Below, piece after piece: positions 2,063 through 42,756 of a stretch of 43,870 nt of DNA. The position numbers were made by a program, and so were the translations under genes. Every line of letters begins with the position of its first letter. Positions within the stretch are counted from its first letter, which is position 1. The notes beneath the pieces were generated by a model, which ran no database searches, was not told the DNA's origin, and saw only the letters and a program-made list of their open reading frames with translations. The stretch comes from Hyphomonadaceae bacterium. Its GTDB lineage: Bacteria > Pseudomonadota > Alphaproteobacteria > Caulobacterales > Hyphomonadaceae. The DNA is taken from contig JALEGE010000107.1 of assembly GCA_022760335.1 (NCBI GenBank), positions 1 through 43,870 on the forward strand, in the 5' to 3' direction.

Positions 2063-2884
2063 TCAGCGCCGCGCGGCCGCGCCCTGCTGATCAAGATCCA
2101 TCAGAGACACGCGCTCGGTAATACGCCGCGCGGTTTCTGAAAGGTGCGGAATGAAGAGGCGCTCGACCTCGGCCAATTCCGTCATGCCGATCGCAGCCTG
2201 AGCACTTATGGCTGCAATCGGTTGTTCATCGGCATTGAATATTGGCATCCCAATACTGACCATGCCTGCCGACAGCTCTTCATTGTTGATGGAGTAGCCA
2301 CGCGAGCGGATAAGCTGGAGCTCACGCATGAACTCTTCACGACGCGTAATGGTGTTTGGCGCCAGGCGTTCCCATGCAATAGCCTCCATGACACTCGAAA
2401 GCTCTCCAGGCGGGCAAAATGCCAAATACGCCTTGCCTGAAGACGTGGCATAAATGGGGAACCGGTGGGCGAGCGGGTGCACGAAGCCGGGCCGGACAAA
2501 TGAGAGGATCGATATCGTCTCGGCACCAGCAAAGATGGAGACATAAACCGCCGCATCGAGCGTCTTGTGAAGCTGCCAGGCATCGACCTTGGCCAGCTGT
2601 CCCAATTGCAGACCGAAGCTCCCGCCATATCCCAGATCAAGCGCGCGCAAGGTTAGCCCGAAGAGCCCCTCACTGTCCCTTGCAACATATCCGTCTGCTT
2701 GCAGCGAGGTCAGCACACGCCGTGCAGTGGTTATGGGAATCCCCACCATGCGCGACAGTTCCCGCGGGCTCAAACGTTGAGATGTCCTTGAAAAGGCCGC
2801 CAGGGCAGTCAATCCCCGCGCCAATGCGTCAACCCGATAGCGGTTGCGCTCACGCTTTCCCGACTGCTCGTTATTATTCACCAT
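2063..2884 (-). CDS. IclR-family transcriptional regulator A
   Basis: This 273-residue DNA-binding regulator has an N-terminal winged helix (about residues 15-80, with LSPRELSRMVGIPITTARRVLTSL as the recognition helices) and a C-terminal IclR effector-binding domain (about 95-260, containing YATSSGKAYLAF and SIGMPIF). The layout matches the PcaR/PobR branch, whose members often respond to aromatic or ring-cleavage acids. Its ATG overlaps the end of the upstream IclR gene by 7 bases, so the two are translationally coupled. Likely targets are the TonB receptor on its left and the divergent RidA operon. The effector cannot be read from the sequence. Confidence 0.9.
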   Translation of the reverse strand: MVNNNEQSGKRERNRYRVDALARGLTALAAFSRTSQRLSPRELSRMVGIPITTARRVLTSLQADGYVARDSEGLFGLTLRALDLGYGGSFGLQLGQLAKVDAWQLHKTLDAAVYVSIFAGAETISILSFVRPGFVHPLAHRFPIYATSSGKAYLAFCPPGELSSVMEAIAWERLAPNTITRREEFMRELQLIRSRGYSINNEELSAGMVSIGMPIFNADEQPIAAISAQAAIGMTELAEVERLFIPHLSETARRITERVSLMDLDQQGAAARR

Positions 2885-3594
2885 GCGTCATTCAGAGTTC
2901 TGGTCTGCACGGAAATATTCTCCGCAGCCTTTTGCAGATCCGGCACTGCACGCAGCAGTGTCTCTTCATCCGTGCCCGCACGGTATAGACGCGACCAGGA
3001 TAGCGCCGCCAATAGCCCATCCTCGCCCATTACGGGTACGGCTACCGTGTGCAGCTTCGCAACCAGCGTATCGATCGCACAGGCATATGCCTCGCCGGAG
3101 CCAGACAGCCAACCGCCAGCCAAACGGCCAGCACATAAAGTATCCGCCTGATAGCGCGCGCCTTGAAACAGGCGAGATGCAGACAGCTCGCCCGTCGCTC
3201 GGCTGGCAACCAGGAACACGCTGTCATCATAGCGCACCCACAAACCGACAAGCCCGGGACGGGATTGACTGAGATGCTCAAGCTCTGGAACGCAAGCCTG
3301 CACCAGTATTGAATTGTGCAAGGTGACCGACCCCAGCCGCAGTGCGCCAAGTGATGCGCGATACTTGCCCGTTGTCGGATCTTCCTCGAGGAAATCCAGC
3401 TCGCACAATGTACTCACAAGTCTCAAACTTGTTGAGGGGACACGCCCTGTTAGCCGCACAATTTCGGTCAGGCTCAGCGACGGGCGATCCGCCGAAAACA
3501 GTCTCAATATCTCCAACCCGCTGGTCAGCGCCTCAATCCGTTGATCATCGCCAGGACTGTCTGATTTTGGGGATGGAGGGCGTCCTCGCGGCAT
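2878..3594 (-). CDS. IclR-family transcriptional regulator B
   Basis: This 238-residue protein is the first gene of a tandem IclR pair. Residues 18-80 form the winged helix (EALTSGLEILRLF, then SLTEIVRLTGRVPSTSLRLV). Residues 95-230 are a degenerate IclR effector domain, shorter and more divergent than in regulator A. The N-terminus is a short basic, proline-rich tail (MPRGRPPSPKSD) common in this family. It is transcribed away from the RidA/amidohydrolase operon, the usual place for a regulator of a divergent catabolic operon. Two different IclR proteins in one transcript could form heteromers or read two signals, but nothing in the sequence decides this. Confidence 0.85.
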   Translation of the reverse strand: MPRGRPPSPKSDSPGDDQRIEALTSGLEILRLFSADRPSLSLTEIVRLTGRVPSTSLRLVSTLCELDFLEEDPTTGKYRASLGALRLGSVTLHNSILVQACVPELEHLSQSRPGLVGLWVRYDDSVFLVASRATGELSASRLFQGARYQADTLCAGRLAGGWLSGSGEAYACAIDTLVAKLHTVAVPVMGEDGLLAALSWSRLYRAGTDEETLLRAVPDLQKAAENISVQTRTLNDAW

Positions 3595-3931: not shown

Positions 3932-5290
3932 ATGCACGCCAAGGAAACCCGGCTTTGCTGCCCAACGGGCACCGCAGGCCCATTTGTCTTCACCGCGGCC
4001 ATAACCCCTCATCGGGCCGAAACAGGCAGCATCGTAAGAATGATGGAAGATCTGGCCTCCCCACTTCCCGCGATGGGTGTTCCATTTGTTGATATCGCCC
4101 TGGCATCACACCTGGCCCAGACAGCACAGTGTATGACCAACCTGGCCCAGACGCTTAAGACGGCCGGGACATCCCTGGACCGATTGGTCCATCTTCGTGT
4201 TCTTGTGACAGATCCGCTTAGCGAAGGGCCGGTTCTGGGGCTGATCCTTACCCTTCTGCCCGCCGTACGACCGGCCGTTTCCATCGTGGTTGTGGACGGC
4301 ACAGAGCTCGATCCGCGCATCCTTGTTCAGATCGACGCCGTTGCACTGTCAGGCGAGGCTGAGGACGAGATTGTCGAAATTCCCGCCTCACCAACGCATG
4401 GGCTGCCCGTCGGGTTTCCTGCCGCTGTACGTGTTGGCAACTGGTGCTTCACATCAATGATCCTTGCGCTGGACTCCAATGGGGTCCCGGTTGCCTCCAT
4501 GGCCCAACTTGATGCGGGCGCGCGCGATATACTCCCCGATCCCGTCATCCCGGTTGCGCCATCATTAACCTCTTACATCGCCCAGCACGCCGCCTGTTTT
4601 AGCGCGACATCCGCAATTGTTGAGGCGGCAGGACTAGAGACTGGGGACATCGTCTATGTCGGCGAATTCTATGCCGGACTGGACATGGCGGGAACAATTC
4701 TAGGATGCGCCTCGGGCATGGCGACCCAGTTGAGCCCCTACTGCCTGTCTTCATTCATTCAGGGGCGCCTGCGACACCCGCTCGCCAGAGCCTGCAGCCG
4801 GGTGATCGCATATGCCGGCTCATCGCGTGAGACCCCCAATATTCAAGCCAGCGCACTTGCTCCGGTCTATGCCGATGCCGTGCCCGCTGGCGGGCTGCTG
4901 TTTACATCCGGGGAAGTGCCGATTGACGTAGAAAAAGTGCGCGCCCTCGCCGAGGCAGGCGATATGTCAGCAGAGTTCAATGGCACAGATATGGGGCGCT
5001 GGCACGGCCCACAGCCCGCCCTGGCACAGGCACGATTCATCTATGCATCACTGGCTGAAACTCTGGCAGAGAATGGCTGCACTGTGGACGATGTCGCGCA
5101 TCAGACGGTTTATCTGACCCATCCGAGCGACGCCCCGCAGATCGATCTGGCCTATCAGCTTGCGTTCGGGGGGCCACTGCCACCGACCACCTTCCTGCCA
5201 ATTGCTGCATGTTCGCCCGCCAAGACAAGCCGGCTTGAGATTGAGTTCGTGGCCGCAATTCCCTCCCCAGAGGTAAACGATGAAAATTGA
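3932..5290 (+). CDS. Triple RidA/YjgF-domain protein
   Basis: This 452-residue protein appears to be three RidA-like (YjgF/YER057c) domains in one chain: roughly residues 12-138, 160-300 and 312-446. RidA proteins are usually about 130 residues and act as homotrimers. They hydrolyse imines and enamines, and some relatives are 2-aminomuconate deaminases. Domain 1 ends in ILVQIDAVAL and domain 3 in PPTTFLPIAACSPA followed by RLEIEFVAAI, both typical RidA C-terminal strands. The middle domain is the most divergent. I could not place the catalytic arginine of E. coli RidA with certainty in any domain. The gene heads an operon and overlaps the next gene by 11 bases. No strong ribosome-binding site precedes the ATG, so the start is the least certain part. 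Confidence 0.75.
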   Translation: MHAKETRLCCPTGTAGPFVFTAAITPHRAETGSIVRMMEDLASPLPAMGVPFVDIALASHLAQTAQCMTNLAQTLKTAGTSLDRLVHLRVLVTDPLSEGPVLGLILTLLPAVRPAVSIVVVDGTELDPRILVQIDAVALSGEAEDEIVEIPASPTHGLPVGFPAAVRVGNWCFTSMILALDSNGVPVASMAQLDAGARDILPDPVIPVAPSLTSYIAQHAACFSATSAIVEAAGLETGDIVYVGEFYAGLDMAGTILGCASGMATQLSPYCLSSFIQGRLRHPLARACSRVIAYAGSSRETPNIQASALAPVYADAVPAGGLLFTSGEVPIDVEKVRALAEAGDMSAEFNGTDMGRWHGPQPALAQARFIYASLAETLAENGCTVDDVAHQTVYLTHPSDAPQIDLAYQLAFGGPLPPTTFLPIAACSPAKTSRLEIEFVAAIPSPEVNDEN

Positions 5291-6269
5291 CATCCACTCC
5301 CACGTTCTACCGCGTATCATCCTGGAAGCGCTTGCGGATAATCCCTCCAAGTCGCCATTTCCTGTAGCGCGCGCAGACGATGGCTATACGATCACTGGAT
5401 ATGGCCGCATCGAGCCGGGCATGTATGATCTCGACTTGCGCTGCTCCGCGCTGGATGATGCCGGGATTGCACGCCAATATTTTGCCCCACCCCCGCCGAT
5501 CCTGTCGCACTACAGCCATGCGATCCCGGCTGAATTTGCAACCGTGTTGAACACGGCCAATGCCGCAGTGACGCAGACAACCAATAGCCGGCTTATCGCG
5601 CTGGCCACGCCCGCGCTGGCTGACCCGGCGGAGACTGCCCCCCTCCTTGAACGCGCAGTGGGCGAGTTTGGCTTTCCCGGCGTTGCACTGCCCACCTCCG
5701 CAGGCGCGCGCGACTTCGACGATCCTGCCTTTGAGCCAATGTGGTCCGTGATCGAACGCCTGGGCCTGACTGTCTTCATGCACGCCACCTCGCGCGCCGA
5801 TCATCCCGCCGCTGGCAACTTCAATCTTGGTCTCCTTGTGTCCTGGCCAACCGAGGTCACCTACGCTGCTTCCCGGCTTATTTTCTCTGGTGTGATGGAA
5901 CGTCATCCGGACTTGAAGATCATCCTGTCGCATGGCGGAGGCACACTTCCGGCCCTGATCCAGAGACTTGATTTGGGATACCATGCGCCGGATTACGAGC
6001 ATGATCCGGAATGCTCCGAGCACATCGCTGCACCACCGAGCCGCTATCTTCGAAACTTTCACTTTGACACCGTTGTTGGTGGCGGGCCGGCCCTGCGCGC
6101 GCTGATCGACTCGGTTGGATACGCCAACATCGTGTTTGGCACCGACTATCCCTATGAGGTCGGCGATGCGGATGGATCGCGCGCCAGCGCCATTATTGAC
6201 GATCTGCCAGTCGATATCCGCGAAGCCATTTATCGAAACAACGCAGCGCGCCTGTTCCCACAGAATTGA
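5280..6269 (+). CDS. Amidohydrolase of the ACMSD (aminocarboxymuconate-semialdehyde decarboxylase) type
   Basis: This 329-residue metal-dependent TIM-barrel enzyme belongs to amidohydrolase family 2. The N-terminal HxH zinc site is IDIHSH (H6, H8). Further expected ligands are the histidine in FMHATS (about residue 168), the histidine in LSHGGG (about 218) and the aspartate in FGTDYPYE (about 289). Family members decarboxylate or hydrolyse acids such as 2-amino-3-carboxymuconate semialdehyde, 5-carboxyvanillate or gamma-resorcylate. A ribosome-binding site, AGAGG, lies just before the ATG. Overlap with the RidA gene shows tight coupling. Pairing with a RidA protein recalls aminomuconate chemistry, but no ring-cleavage dioxygenase is nearby, so the substrate remains open. 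Confidence 0.8.
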   Translation: MKIDIHSHVLPRIILEALADNPSKSPFPVARADDGYTITGYGRIEPGMYDLDLRCSALDDAGIARQYFAPPPPILSHYSHAIPAEFATVLNTANAAVTQTTNSRLIALATPALADPAETAPLLERAVGEFGFPGVALPTSAGARDFDDPAFEPMWSVIERLGLTVFMHATSRADHPAAGNFNLGLLVSWPTEVTYAASRLIFSGVMERHPDLKIILSHGGGTLPALIQRLDLGYHAPDYEHDPECSEHIAAPPSRYLRNFHFDTVVGGGPALRALIDSVGYANIVFGTDYPYEVGDADGSRASAIIDDLPVDIREAIYRNNAARLFPQN

Positions 6270-6279
6270 AGTAACAAAA

Positions 6280-7110
6280 ATGGAAACTCAAGACATATCG
6301 TCCCTGGTAATCTTTGCCATGGCCTTGATTGCAGTGGGCGCTGGCGCCGGGCTGGTTGCCGGATTACTTGGCGTGGGCGGCGGCATCGTGATTGTGCCTC
6401 TGCTGTTTCAAGTGCTCACAATGCTGGGCATCGAACTAGGTACAGCGATGCATGTCGCTGTTGGCACTTCACTGGCCACAATCGTCATCAATGGAATGTC
6501 CTCGGCACGGGCGCACTATCGAAAAGGGTCTGTCGATACAGCCCTTCTGCGCAGCTGGGGCCCAGCAATTGCCGTCGGCGCCATCACGGGGGCGGCATTT
6601 GCCGGACTTACGCGCGGAACCCTGCTCTCTGCACTTTTCGCCTGCGTCGCGCTTTGCGTTGCAGTCTACATGTTCTGGTCACGCGAAAGCACGCGCGAGA
6701 CAGCTGCCGCGCCGAGCGGGCTCGCCGGGACCGGTATTGCCGGATGTGTCGGACTATTATCCTCCATGATCGGCATCGGCGGCGGGACACTCATGGTTCC
6801 CATCCTTTCTGCATCCGGATATCCGATACGGCGCGCGGTTGGAACGGCGTCGGCCGTGGGCCTGATCATAGCCATTCCCGCAAGCCTGGCCTTTGTCATA
6901 ACAGGCTGGGGCACGCCAGACCGCCCACCTTTTTCCCTTGGCAACGTCAACATAGTCGCCATTGCGTGCATCGCACCGCTGGGGGTCCTGTTTGCACCCA
7001 TTGGTGCCCGGATTGCCCATGGGTTACCACCGCGCCTGTTGCGGTGGGTTTTCGCCCTCTTCCTGGTCATTTCAGCAACGCGAATGCTTTACGCCGCGCT
7101 GAGTGGCTAA
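6280..7110 (+). CDS. TauE/SafE-family anion exporter
   Basis: This is an inner-membrane protein of 276 residues with about eight hydrophobic helices. It carries the duplicated glycine-rich family motif: AGLLGVGGGIVIVPLL near residues 25-45 and SSMIGIGGGTLMVPIL in the second half. TauE/SafE proteins export or take up small anions such as sulfite, sulfoacetate or organic acids. I chose the METQDISS start at 6280, ten bases after the amidohydrolase stop; the longer frame to 6115 lies inside the previous gene. As the third gene of the operon it probably moves a substrate or product of the RidA/amidohydrolase steps. A sulfonated substrate is possible but unproven. Confidence 0.85.
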   Translation: METQDISSLVIFAMALIAVGAGAGLVAGLLGVGGGIVIVPLLFQVLTMLGIELGTAMHVAVGTSLATIVINGMSSARAHYRKGSVDTALLRSWGPAIAVGAITGAAFAGLTRGTLLSALFACVALCVAVYMFWSRESTRETAAAPSGLAGTGIAGCVGLLSSMIGIGGGTLMVPILSASGYPIRRAVGTASAVGLIIAIPASLAFVITGWGTPDRPPFSLGNVNIVAIACIAPLGVLFAPIGARIAHGLPPRLLRWVFALFLVISATRMLYAALSG

Positions 7111-7151: not shown

Positions 7152-8090
7152 CTACTTGATGGCGTATGGATTGATAGGCGAGCCTACGGCGCCAGTGATT
7201 GGCAGGGGCGGCGCAACGAACATGAACTCATATATGCCGTCACCTGCGCAGTCTTCAGCGAGGTCTTCCAGGTCAAATATCTCACCGATATGCAGCCCCA
7301 TATTCGGCAAAACGACCTGGTGCAGAGGTTGGAAGCTGCCGGGCAGCTCATTGGGGCGCACCTCAAAGCCCCAAGTGTCCGTCGCGATTGCTGCGAGTTC
7401 GTTTCGGAAAAGCCAATCGGCAGAGTAGAATGAGAGCCCTGGCGCATCACCGCCAGCATATGCCCCCCATCCATTGGCCTTGCAGTGACCCATCTGTCCC
7501 GTTCTCACAAGAACGAAATCACCTGATTGAATATTCGAGCTTTGCCCCTGCGCAGCAACACATGCCTCAAGGTCTTCCTCGGTGATGGCATAGCCAGGAG
7601 CCAGAGACTCAACACCCTTCGATCTTGCGATGTCGAGCAGAATCCCTCGCCCGACAAAATTGTTGGACACCTTCTCAATGCCATTCTTGGCAGCACCTAA
7701 AGAAGATACAACACTGGCATCGTGACCATTATAGGCCTTGCCGCGATCAAATGCATGCGAGAGCGCGTCCCACTGGGTCGCACATTGCAGGGGCATGAAA
7801 ATAGTGTCGTCAGAGAAACCAATACCATGCGGAAGAGGCAGCGTATCGCATCCATCAAAGGTCATGCTGTGCATGGGATTGATGCGGCCATTCTCCCCGG
7901 TTTGAGGACCATTGTGATCAAAAGGTATCGCCAGCGCAAAGGTTTTGCCCTGCTTCACAAGGCCTGCAGCTTTGACAATCATTTCCGGTGACACGAAATT
8001 CAGTGTGCCGCGCTCGTCCGCCTCTCCCCATCTGCCCCAGTTTCTGTATTTTTCAGCTGCGGCGACGATTTCATCTTCGGTCTGTTTCAC
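7152..8090 (-). CDS. Cyclase-family (kynurenine-formamidase-like) hydrolase
   Basis: This 312-residue protein belongs to the PF04199 cyclase family, whose members are metal-dependent hydrolases including bacterial kynurenine formamidase and isatin hydrolase. Conserved stretches include YRNWGRWGEADERGTLNFV at the N-terminus and the metal-site region QCATQWDALSH near residues 100-112. The kynurenine formamidase signature is HxGTHxDxPxH, so this branch has Q and A in place of the first H and the G. Frame extends to a TTG at 8186 inside the previous gene; I prefer the GTG at 8090, which has AGG about 8 bases ahead and fits the family N-terminus. It is the last gene of the TetR/decarboxylase-like operon. 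It may open a lactone, ester or amide ring. Confidence 0.8.
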   Translation of the reverse strand: MKQTEDEIVAAAEKYRNWGRWGEADERGTLNFVSPEMIVKAAGLVKQGKTFALAIPFDHNGPQTGENGRINPMHSMTFDGCDTLPLPHGIGFSDDTIFMPLQCATQWDALSHAFDRGKAYNGHDASVVSSLGAAKNGIEKVSNNFVGRGILLDIARSKGVESLAPGYAITEEDLEACVAAQGQSSNIQSGDFVLVRTGQMGHCKANGWGAYAGGDAPGLSFYSADWLFRNELAAIATDTWGFEVRPNELPGSFQPLHQVVLPNMGLHIGEIFDLEDLAEDCAGDGIYEFMFVAPPLPITGAVGSPINPYAIK

Positions 8091-8145
8091 GGTAGATACC
8101 TGTTCTGATCGTGTTGTAAGATTGGCCTCATGGGCGCGGATCGCG

Positions 8146-8976
8146 TCATTTGAGCCTTTGCTGATCGCGCAAATCCTTGCTGCCAACGGATTTCACGATC
8201 GAGCCGGGGCGCCAGGCCAGGACTGGCAAGGCCGCCAATTTGTCGATGATATGATGCAGCGTTGGGAACGTCTCCCAGGGCCCTGGGCTGAACGCTGCGC
8301 GCGCATCGCCAATCTTGCTGGACAGAAGCTTGTAATTGGGAACGCCCAAAGGGGTCAGCGTGGCATAGGCCGCGTCCGCCTCACCCCAGTCTCCTGTCCG
8401 GGGAACATATTTATAATGCAGCAAGCCTGCAGCCCCGGCTTCGCCACCATGCGGGGGTTTGCCCTCCTGGAAGTCGGTTGCAAATTGCAGTTCCAGAAAG
8501 GGGGTCCCGCCCCAACCAGTCTGGATGACCATCATCCCATCTGTTTCCACAGGGTCGGCGATTTCTGCGTACAGTTTGTTGAAGCCAAGCTCTTCGCGAC
8601 CACTGATGATCGGGTCGGCCATGTTTTCAAACAGGACAGACAGAAAGCTGCCCCGAACCGGACCGTCCGCGCCATTATAAGCGGCAGGGAACCGAATCCC
8701 CACAGTGTTGTACCCCCGTCCGGCCAACCATCCGATATTGCTGATATACTGCACCTCAATGGTAACGACCGGTTCTCCGTCCAGGGAAAAAGGCTCCGGC
8801 AGCAAACCGGCCAGGGCGGCCTCTTCGGTTTCGAAACGGACCGCATAGGTCGTCATGTCCGGATTGTCTGAAAGATCGTGACGATGCCCAAACTGATTCT
8901 GGCGTGGCCCTGAACCCGCGCCAAAACCAACAGGCATGCGATAGATGAGACGCATTTCGTTGCCATCTGCAGTCAT
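8146..8976 (-). CDS. Acetoacetate decarboxylase-family protein
   Basis: This 276-residue protein resembles the acetoacetate decarboxylase (ADC) superfamily. The segment GREELGFNKLYAEI (lysine near residue 131) aligns with the region holding the Schiff-base lysine of true ADCs. Many members of this branch are not acetoacetate decarboxylases but act as aldolase-dehydratases or have unknown roles. Its ATG overlaps the stop codon of the upstream TetR gene (ATGA), so it is co-transcribed and probably under that regulator. A keto-acid or beta-dicarbonyl substrate is a reasonable guess given the neighbouring oxidoreductases. Confidence 0.7.
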   Translation of the reverse strand: MTADGNEMRLIYRMPVGFGAGSGPRQNQFGHRHDLSDNPDMTTYAVRFETEEAALAGLLPEPFSLDGEPVVTIEVQYISNIGWLAGRGYNTVGIRFPAAYNGADGPVRGSFLSVLFENMADPIISGREELGFNKLYAEIADPVETDGMMVIQTGWGGTPFLELQFATDFQEGKPPHGGEAGAAGLLHYKYVPRTGDWGEADAAYATLTPLGVPNYKLLSSKIGDARAAFSPGPWETFPTLHHIIDKLAALPVLAWRPGSIVKSVGSKDLRDQQRLK

Positions 8977-40409: not shown

Positions 40410-42683
40410 CTAAAACTCCATTTTCAGCTCTACCGAGAGGCTCGCCGGTTCCTGAAGCTCGTAGATCTGATTGCCAACAAGGTTGGCGGCGGCAAAAGTC
40501 TTGCCATCCTCATCGGTGATGTTTCGCCCGATCAGCGCGAGCTGCCAGCCTGCGCGTGGATTGCCGACACCCAGGCGGAAGCCAAGCGCGTAGTATGAAT
40601 CCGTAACAGCAAGAGGGTCAGCCAGATACAGGACTTTCTCGTCCGTATAGTTGAGCGACAGGGCAAAGTCCCCCTCAAGCGTGTCACTCAGGTCGAACGC
40701 GTAGTCCAAGGCCGCATTTGCTGTCCATTCCGGGGTCTGTGTTAATCTGGCGCCGTTGGCGATCGGAACCGCAAATGACAAACCACGCACCATTGTTGGC
40801 GCCTTGTCGATTTCTGAATCCAGGTAGGCAACGCCAAGATTGAGATTCAAGCTATCCAGCATCGCATATTGAAGCTCGACCTCACCGCCCATCACGGTGG
40901 AGTCTTCGATATTTCCAAGCGTCGCAATTGCCCCAAGCGGAACCTGGACAAAGGACAGGGTTTGCTTGTCTGAATAGTCGTAATGGAACGCGGAAACGCC
41001 AACATAGAGGCGCCTGTTCAGAGTCGACTTTACGCCGACTTCCAGAGCCAGAAGCTCCTCAGGCTCCACATACCCCCATGCGCCAGGGTCGGGGGTGGGC
41101 CCTGAGAAAAAGACCCCGGATTTGAAGCCGGTGGCTGCGGATGCGTACAGCATGGTGTTCTCGGTTGCGTCATAGTCAAACCCCAGACGCCAGGAGAAGT
41201 TTGTCTCCTTCTCAGTTTGCTCCAGTTCTACCAAAGCTGCGCCCGGAACCGAGGTCAGGTATCCGGTATCGTCAAACGCTGCCCCGCTAAATGTCCTGTC
41301 ATCATGGGAAACACGTCCGGCTGCCGTCAAACCCAACTTCTCACTTAACCGCCATTCCGTATGCAGATATGCGCCAAGCGATGTGGTCTCCTGTTCGGTG
41401 TCTGTGGTGCTGGTGATCTCGAGACCAAAGTCCGACGGGCGAGCCCCCGCCGGCGCCACCAGTTCATAGAAGTCTGTGTTCAGGACGGTATCATTCACAC
41501 CAATGGTGTCGTAGCCAAAAAACACGCCACCCACGATCGTCAGATAATCCGTTGGATCTGCGTTGATCCGGAATTCCTGGCTAAACTGCTCGACATCGGT
41601 TCTGAAGAGAAAGTCAACCAGCCGGGCGGGAGTGCCATCGTTATTTTCGTAGAGCTCCCGGTCCAGGACCTGATAGGCTGAAATTGATGTTATCTTGCCG
41701 ATGCCTGTACCGATCTCGAACCGGGCATTTGCCCCATACAACAGATTGTCTGTTTCCGGCTGATCGGTTCCGTCAACGCCCGAGAAGAATGGCCCAAGAT
41801 CCACCTCATCGACATTTCCTGACGAGCTGAACTGGATGCCCAGCACGCCATCAAGCCCAAGACGGTCATCCGCCTGCCAGCTCTTGTCGATGGATTTGTT
41901 GCGTTCAACGAACCCGGTGAAGAGCGCGTAGACATTGCCTCCGAGTTGAGTGTCGATATGCGCGCGTGCCGAGAGTTTATCGAGCTGGGCCGCGTCTTCG
42001 CTTCCACGCACGCCTTTCTGCCAGGCACTGGTTCCATACGCATAGTTTACAGCGACCCGGCCACGCGTCTCTTCGGATATTGGGCCAGACACCACCCCCG
42101 TCGCATTCAGCTGATCAAGGGTGTCATATCGCAACCGGACAGAGGACTCCAATTCATCGCTTGGCTTGGCCGTGATGAAACTGATCGCACCACCTGTTGC
42201 ATTTCGCCCATAGAGCGTGCCTTGAGGCCCCTTCAGAACCTCGACGCGCTCAAGGTCGAACAACTGAAATGCCTGTTGGGTCGAAGAGACTGGATAGACC
42301 TCATCCACATAAACCGCAGTTCCGCTGGTATTGTTTCCAATGAAGTCTTCCAGCCCCACGCCTCGAATACTGTAGGACGGCGCCCCGGAAGCCGAGAAGC
42401 TGGCGGACAGCCCAGGCGTGATATCCGCCAGTCCGACAGGGTCAGAAATGACCTTGTCTTGAATCTCCTCGCCAGAGAAAGCTGAAATAGCAATGGGAAC
42501 GTCGGTAACAGCCTGTTCTCGTCTTTGCGACGTCACGGTCACCGCCTTCAAAACCGTGGTTTCGTCGTCTGGCAGATCCTGACTGTCCACACCTTGCGCA
42601 AACGCCTCTGCTCCCATGAGAAGCAAGGGTGCGAACACCAGCGTCGACGTAACGAGCATCATCTTTTTCATCTTTTTCCCCAT
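40410..42683 (-). CDS. TonB-dependent outer-membrane receptor
   Basis: This complete receptor has 757 residues from the ATG at 42683. A signal peptide (KKMMLVTSTLVFAPLLLMG to AFAQ) is followed by a TonB-box-like TVLKAVTVTSQRREQ. The plug carries GPQGTLYGRNATGGAISFIT near residue 140, and a 22-strand type barrel ends in SLSVELKMEF with the terminal phenylalanine. A second ATG at 42671 is a possible start. It is divergent from a BetI-like TetR gene across a palindrome-rich operator and lies beside gbdR. It may import a quaternary amine compound or a larger choline-containing molecule, but the substrate is not readable from sequence. Confidence 0.93.
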   Translation of the reverse strand: MGKKMKKMMLVTSTLVFAPLLLMGAEAFAQGVDSQDLPDDETTVLKAVTVTSQRREQAVTDVPIAISAFSGEEIQDKVISDPVGLADITPGLSASFSASGAPSYSIRGVGLEDFIGNNTSGTAVYVDEVYPVSSTQQAFQLFDLERVEVLKGPQGTLYGRNATGGAISFITAKPSDELESSVRLRYDTLDQLNATGVVSGPISEETRGRVAVNYAYGTSAWQKGVRGSEDAAQLDKLSARAHIDTQLGGNVYALFTGFVERNKSIDKSWQADDRLGLDGVLGIQFSSSGNVDEVDLGPFFSGVDGTDQPETDNLLYGANARFEIGTGIGKITSISAYQVLDRELYENNDGTPARLVDFLFRTDVEQFSQEFRINADPTDYLTIVGGVFFGYDTIGVNDTVLNTDFYELVAPAGARPSDFGLEITSTTDTEQETTSLGAYLHTEWRLSEKLGLTAAGRVSHDDRTFSGAAFDDTGYLTSVPGAALVELEQTEKETNFSWRLGFDYDATENTMLYASAATGFKSGVFFSGPTPDPGAWGYVEPEELLALEVGVKSTLNRRLYVGVSAFHYDYSDKQTLSFVQVPLGAIATLGNIEDSTVMGGEVELQYAMLDSLNLNLGVAYLDSEIDKAPTMVRGLSFAVPIANGARLTQTPEWTANAALDYAFDLSDTLEGDFALSLNYTDEKVLYLADPLAVTDSYYALGFRLGVGNPRAGWQLALIGRNITDEDGKTFAAANLVGNQIYELQEPASLSVELKMEF

Positions 42684-42717
42684 TTTAGGCACCGATTTAT
42701 CTTCATATGACTTGACG

Positions 42718-42756
42718 TAACAGTTGTTATAACACAAATGTTACATAACAAATGTT
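42718..42756. promoter_or_regulatory. Palindrome-rich operator between TonB receptor and TetR genes
   Basis: In this AT-rich spacer there are several overlapping inverted repeats. These are TAACAGTTGTTA (42718-42729), GTTATAAC (42726-42733), TGTTACATAACA (42739-42750) and AACAAATGTT (42747-42756). ACAAATGTT also occurs twice in direct orientation, 14 bases apart. The half-sites share AACA/TGTT. This is the likely operator of the adjacent TetR protein, controlling both directions. Confidence 0.6.

Follow-up and report, generated by a model that had tools for sequence, protein, structure and literature searches.

A strongly diverged Rid protein with three domains in one chain and unlike sites, encoded in a probable operon of a Hyphomonadaceae bacterium

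Rid proteins usually occur as single units that form trimers. Within a 43,870-nucleotide stretch of DNA from a Hyphomonadaceae bacterium (hereafter the window), one gene encodes what an initial annotation took for three consecutive, diverged RidA-like domains in a single chain, and the locus thus raises the question of whether such a chain would still pack as a trimer and what its sites would do. Fusing a homotrimer into one chain leaves its three sites free to diverge. Our best explanation, which we hold to be probable, is that the gene encodes an intact, strongly diverged protein of three Rid domains (3x-Rid): an asymmetric intramolecular trimer in which no more than one cleft would still be family-like and which would act on a catabolic intermediate (coordinates in Table 1).

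Table 1. Position in the window, strand and basis of assignment of the 3x-Rid gene, its domains and the neighbouring genes.
Feature	Position	Strand	Remarks
3x-Rid gene (three tandem Rid/YjgF domains)	3932..5290	+	452 aa
Rid domain 1 (D1, aa 1-145)	3932..4366	+	PF01042 33.7 bits; single-Rid profile 58.0 bits
Rid domain 2 (D2, aa 146-300)	4367..4831	+	most diverged; PF01042 12.2 bits; single-Rid profile 19.8 bits; fold Z 16.3 to RutC
Rid domain 3 (D3, aa 301-452)	4832..5290	+	PF01042 43.7 bits; single-Rid profile 77.5 bits
ACMSD-like amidohydrolase/decarboxylase (PF04909)	5280..6269	+	Pfam; start codon within 3x-Rid gene end
TauE/SafE-type membrane exporter (PF01925)	6280..7110	+	Pfam; third gene of probable operon
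IclR-family regulator	2063..2884	-	Pfam; divergent from operon
Second IclR-type regulator (HTH_IclR)	2878..3594	-	Pfam; divergent from operon
Cyclase-family hydrolase (PF04199)	7152..8186	-	Pfam; convergent neighbour
Acetoacetate decarboxylase-like protein (PF06314)	8146..8976	-	Pfam

The whole protein reaches 79.4 bits against PF01042 (E 2.9e-22), above the curated Pfam cut-off of 27.3 bits; Pfam detects no other family in it, and Rid models alone were matched in NCBIfam. Active-site positions were transferred by alignment, in RidA/TdcF numbering. The suspicion of the initial annotation that the catalytic arginine is missing from all three domains is confirmed: at position 105, arginine in RidA, we find V116 in D1, C271 in D2 (Cys or Ser, depending on the alignment) and T419 in D3. 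Position 120, glutamate in Rid proteins, is Q133 in D1, lost in D2 and kept as E436 in D3, while position 17, tyrosine in Rid proteins, is Phe in D2 and Tyr in D3; D1, whose first strand is truncated, lacks the corresponding stretch. With Tyr17, Asp at 88 and Glu120 all retained, D3 is the sole domain whose residues look Rid-like. These differences (V/C/T at 105; Q/lost/E at 120) support the proposal that the sites have become non-equivalent. According to PMC4433059, Arg105 is required for imine hydrolysis and is present in active RidA proteins, and the functions of Rid4-Rid7, which lack it, are given there as unknown.

In the mechanism that we propose, the three fused domains would pack as a predicted intramolecular trimer whose inter-domain clefts, identical in a homotrimer, have become unlike, none of them carrying the carboxylate-binding Arg105. 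Because that arginine is found in no domain, and Tyr17 together with Glu120 in D3 alone, at most one cleft would be catalytic in a Rid-like manner, the other two being presumably structural or binding something else. Most likely, the protein would hydrolyse, deaminate or tautomerise a catabolic intermediate that stems from a ring compound and is not an alpha-imino acid.

The main rival holds that the trimer is catalytically dead and would sense or buffer a pathway intermediate, in a ligand-binding, regulatory or chaperone-like role. The disappearance of Arg105 from three domains and of Glu120 from two would suit such a protein, as would the very long branches of its domains in a tree of Rid domains (D2 4.42, by far the longest in the tree; D1 1.89; D3 1.74). 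However, the frame is intact and overlaps a metabolic gene, its codon-position GC is similar to that of the neighbouring genes, and Tyr17 and Glu120 are retained in D3, all of which makes a dead trimer unlikely in our judgement.

With regard to the asymmetric trimer with one Rid-like cleft, the surroundings of the gene suggest a catabolic region. The 3x-Rid gene end and the start of the ACMSD-like gene overlap by 11 bases, and 10 bases separate the latter from the TauE-type gene; the three genes form a probable operon and would be transcribed together, and probably translated together, under the divergent IclR regulators. We read the role as catabolic because of this overlap with an ACMSD-like gene and of the IclR, cyclase-family and acetoacetate decarboxylase-like neighbours; the last two lie beyond the operon on the other strand, along with oxidoreductase genes. 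The step carried out by the 3x-Rid protein would stand either upstream or downstream of the decarboxylase. Two cupin proteins and one aldehyde dehydrogenase are encoded about 8-13 kb from the operon, also on the other strand. Promoter-like sites at the locus did not rise above shuffled sequence. It counts against this reading that the pairing of a 3x-Rid with an ACMSD-like gene was met at this locus alone: no Rid gene was found at the 29 amidohydrolase loci compared, 4 of which lie on stretches of 12-16 kb and 25 of which have about 1.5 kb or less per side.

Farther along the window, positions 20012-40130 hold genes for a GMC oxidoreductase, an FMN oxidoreductase, a DUF3483/ferredoxin protein, ETF alpha, a Rieske oxygenase and its reductase, a serine dehydratase, SHMT, sarcosine oxidase alpha, a DAO-type oxidase and two DJ-1/AraC regulators, apparently a cluster for the catabolism of glycine betaine to serine. 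Two genes of the TonB-dependent receptor type lie towards the ends of the window, one at 2-1972 that runs off the left end (judged by sequence) and one at 40410-42737, near the right end (Pfam match).

A second rival makes the protein the deaminase of an enamine or imine arising after the ACMSD-like step, that is, a functional analogue of AmnE (2-aminomuconate deaminase) in which other residues replace the arginine. Among solved structures, the neighbouring amidohydrolase comes closest to human ACMSD (E 3e-33), followed by bacterial ACMSD and 5-carboxyvanillate decarboxylase, and AmnE is itself a Rid protein whose structure (PDB 6izh) matches domain 2 of our model with Z 15.6. On the other hand, the cleft arginine is kept in AmnE (Arg117; PMC6742747) and in active RidA (PMC4433059), and no ring-cleavage dioxygenase of the 2-aminomuconate pathway was recognised beside the operon. 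We therefore regard this analogue as doubtful, and the imine and aminomuconate chemistry suggested by the initial annotation is weakened on the same account, since RidA and AmnE both retain the arginine that is missing here.

A reading in which only two Rid domains are real, the middle third being another fold or a degenerate linker, seems very improbable. It draws on the score of D2 on PF01042, which lies below the cut-off when each third is scored separately (D1 and D3 each exceed it on their own), and on the single-sequence prediction of D2, which without an alignment gave no fold (pLDDT 35.3). Nevertheless, PF01042 is still the sole Pfam match of D2, and its score on a profile built from 46 single-domain Rids was reached by none of 3,000 shuffles, nor were those of D1 and D3 by theirs (best shuffle 9.1, 8.6 and 5.8 bits for D1, D2 and D3; hmmsearch reported 2,537, 2,239 and 2,393 of each 3,000). 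A profile comparison aligned D2 over 72 columns (E 1.8e-6), and the middle unit of the model described below (residues 144-297) superposes on RutC with Z 16.3 and 2.1 A over 123 residues. Because no shuffle comes near its score, D2 is, on the evidence of the profile, a genuine if strongly diverged Rid domain. Neither of the outcomes that the initial annotation had named as speaking against it, namely just one or two RidA domains or a middle part of another fold, appeared when looked for.

Structure prediction, which the initial annotation had proposed, likewise returned three Rid-type units in succession. The AlphaFold2 model (mean pLDDT 68.4, pTM 0.76, pLDDT below 50 in 106 of 452 residues) was computed from an alignment of the window protein with 19 full-length 3x-Rid relatives (21-25% identity to it); these rows are 3x-Rids themselves and may steer the model, so that its support depends on them. 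Together, domain scores, shuffles and model uphold the claim of three consecutive diverged domains in one chain. Only the pTM and whole-chain matches served to judge how the domains pack. With VIA-align, chorismatases came first for the whole chain (Z 20.7, 3.4 A, 277 residues, model residues 15-442, 14% identity). Chorismatases are single-chain pseudotrimers of a similar kind. An intramolecular trimer, as the initial annotation had it, is from this match the likeliest fold, and the closed ring is a prediction of the model. In Foldseek the whole chain matched chorismatases (E 1.6e-9) and the Toblerone enzymes AtzD/barbiturase (E 2.6e-7). For AtzD, PMC3758960 reports that every one of its three repeats supplies one Lys and one Ser, giving three Ser-Lys pairs, and traces the presumed origin of the enzyme to a concatenation of YjgF-type monomers. 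Since D2 contains no lysine in residues 146-300, the three pairs cannot all exist in the window protein, which largely refutes an AtzD identity. That the protein is a pseudotrimer enzyme of the chorismatase or Toblerone kind is thus extremely improbable despite these fold matches, which reflect a pseudotrimer shape in common, given an identity of just 8-15% in the fold alignments and matches to Rid families alone in Pfam and NCBIfam.

The preferred reading, an asymmetric Rid trimer, concerns an orphan: none of the searches made found a close relative. Four overlapping genome samples gave no second full-length match to it and otherwise weak, domain-sized matches; genomes with any match numbered 1 of 61, 66 of 385, 25 of 398 and 43 of 349, the window's own genome being included in each count. 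A pattern scan of an 84,980-species collection produced 55 pattern matches, none of them confirmed, and a plasmid search with the protein yielded only 5 weak partial matches.

Triple Rid proteins as such are not rare. Further ones were read at loci L026, L027, L028, L029, L030 and L032; genome G004 has one too, and the window's own genome a second copy. Viral contigs, scanned with a 3x-Rid alignment (A2), gave none. The long N-terminal frame of the L032 protein overlaps rlmN and was for that reason not taken for a fusion. One group without the arginine spans 21 loci in alpha- and gammaproteobacteria, Dongia mobilis included (L086-L106, where L105, L091 and L086 are the same loci as L026, L032 and L029). 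Its members align to the window protein over the full three domains at 21-25% identity, and resemble it domain by domain in residue type at position 105 (V/A/T against V/C/T): throughout the 19 relatives, domain 1 has Val, Ile or Leu there, domain 2 has Ala and domain 3 has Thr or Ser, and position 120 of domain 2 is occupied by Lys in 18 of them and by Glu in the other one. They differ from it in their shorter loops before helix 1 (three members were measured and have 19 residues, where the window protein has 39-42) and in often lying beside arginine-metabolism genes. Within 5 kb, argininosuccinate synthase is found at 7 of the 21 loci (6 of which also have rlmN), an arginase-family gene at 6, and an amidase with a class-V aminotransferase at 2; a link of this group to guanidino or arginine metabolism is possible.

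Loops before helix 1 take up 15-27 residues in 65 single-domain Rids, against 39-42 in all three window domains (40 in D1), and the only group comparable to the window protein in this respect comprises L030, G004 and the second copy of the window's own genome (locus L131, contig C150), with three domains and loops of 28-41 residues. Its members differ in that domain 2 has retained Arg105 in two of these three proteins, and they share just 21-23% identity with the window protein, in a domain register that does not match. The second copy (L131:1438-2754, 438 aa) adjoins genes for an LVIVD-repeat protein and an MFS transporter, while its relative in G004 lies in a series of genes for SDR, amidohydrolase, beta-lactamase-like and MFS proteins. 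With three-domain and domain-specific profiles the window protein was assigned to neither group, the generic single-Rid profile mostly scoring higher; D2 is an exception, at 23.0 on one group domain profile against 19.5 on the generic one. Domain profiles did not confirm common descent with the Arg-less group, as the likeness at position 105 might have implied.

To place the unlike sites in context, nine 3x-Rid proteins were compared with 65 single-domain Rids. Glu120 is present in 65/65 of the latter and in 16/27 domains of the former, which argues that loss of symmetry is common among 3x-Rids; eight of the nine have at least one domain without it, against 0/65. Arg105 occurs in 28/65 single-domain Rids and in 2 of the 27 domains. 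The loss of Glu120 is hence a simple, testable case of a symmetric assembly turning asymmetric.

The domain tree groups the three domains by protein in L027, in L028 (with one single-domain Rid) and in the L029 group, and this grouping suggests that triplication happened several times, separately. The D1, D2 and D3 of the window protein fall apart from each other, but a tree constrained to unite them is not rejected (p-AU 0.714), so that an origin by internal triplication or by fusion of different Rids is undecided from the tree.

The novelty that the initial annotation implied finds no support, as 3x-RidA has been in print since 2015 (Niehaus et al., PMC4433059) and more 3x-Rids exist in other Proteobacteria and in the same genome. 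The three-domain architecture is already known, and the window protein is an unusual member, otherwise unremarkable in architecture. Our literature searches, which subscription papers mostly escaped, found no further paper on 3x-Rid proteins besides that one; Arg-less 3x-Rids were not met in the full-text searches made, and nothing on a 3x-Rid/ACMSD-like operon came up, although the AmnE paper (PMC6742747) did. PMC4433059 acknowledges the function of Arg-less Rid subfamilies as an open question. As a tentative idea, which we consider unlikely as it stands, the orphan fused trimer with its broken threefold symmetry might be a new single-cleft enzyme in a ring-catabolic operon, coupled to the ACMSD-like decarboxylase; if so, it would add to the Toblerone enzymes another example in which a Rid trimer, once concatenated, gained new chemistry.

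Compared with known systems, the chorismatases FkbO/Hyg5 (4bps, 5ag3, 5a3k) and AtzD/barbiturase are likewise single chains, and the whole model matches their fold, but at 8-15% identity they have no family-level sequence match to the window protein. AmnE shares the Rid fold and, if our reading is right, a place in aromatic catabolism, but, as described in PMC6742747, it is a homohexamer whose conserved cleft arginine is missing here. The imine deaminases RidA and TdcF have the same fold, and D3 retains their Tyr17 and Glu120; the window protein differs from them in lacking Arg105 and in being one chain, not three. Finally, the 3x-RidA proteins, exemplified by EF_0115, have three tandem RidA domains in one chain, described in PMC4433059 as "presumably covalently linked trimer units"; for the window protein, such a packing is a prediction of the model. 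They are classed there as a RidA subset, whereas the window protein has Arg105 in no domain, lacks Glu120 in two, and consists of domains only 17-19% identical to one another, with loops of 39-42 residues before helix 1.
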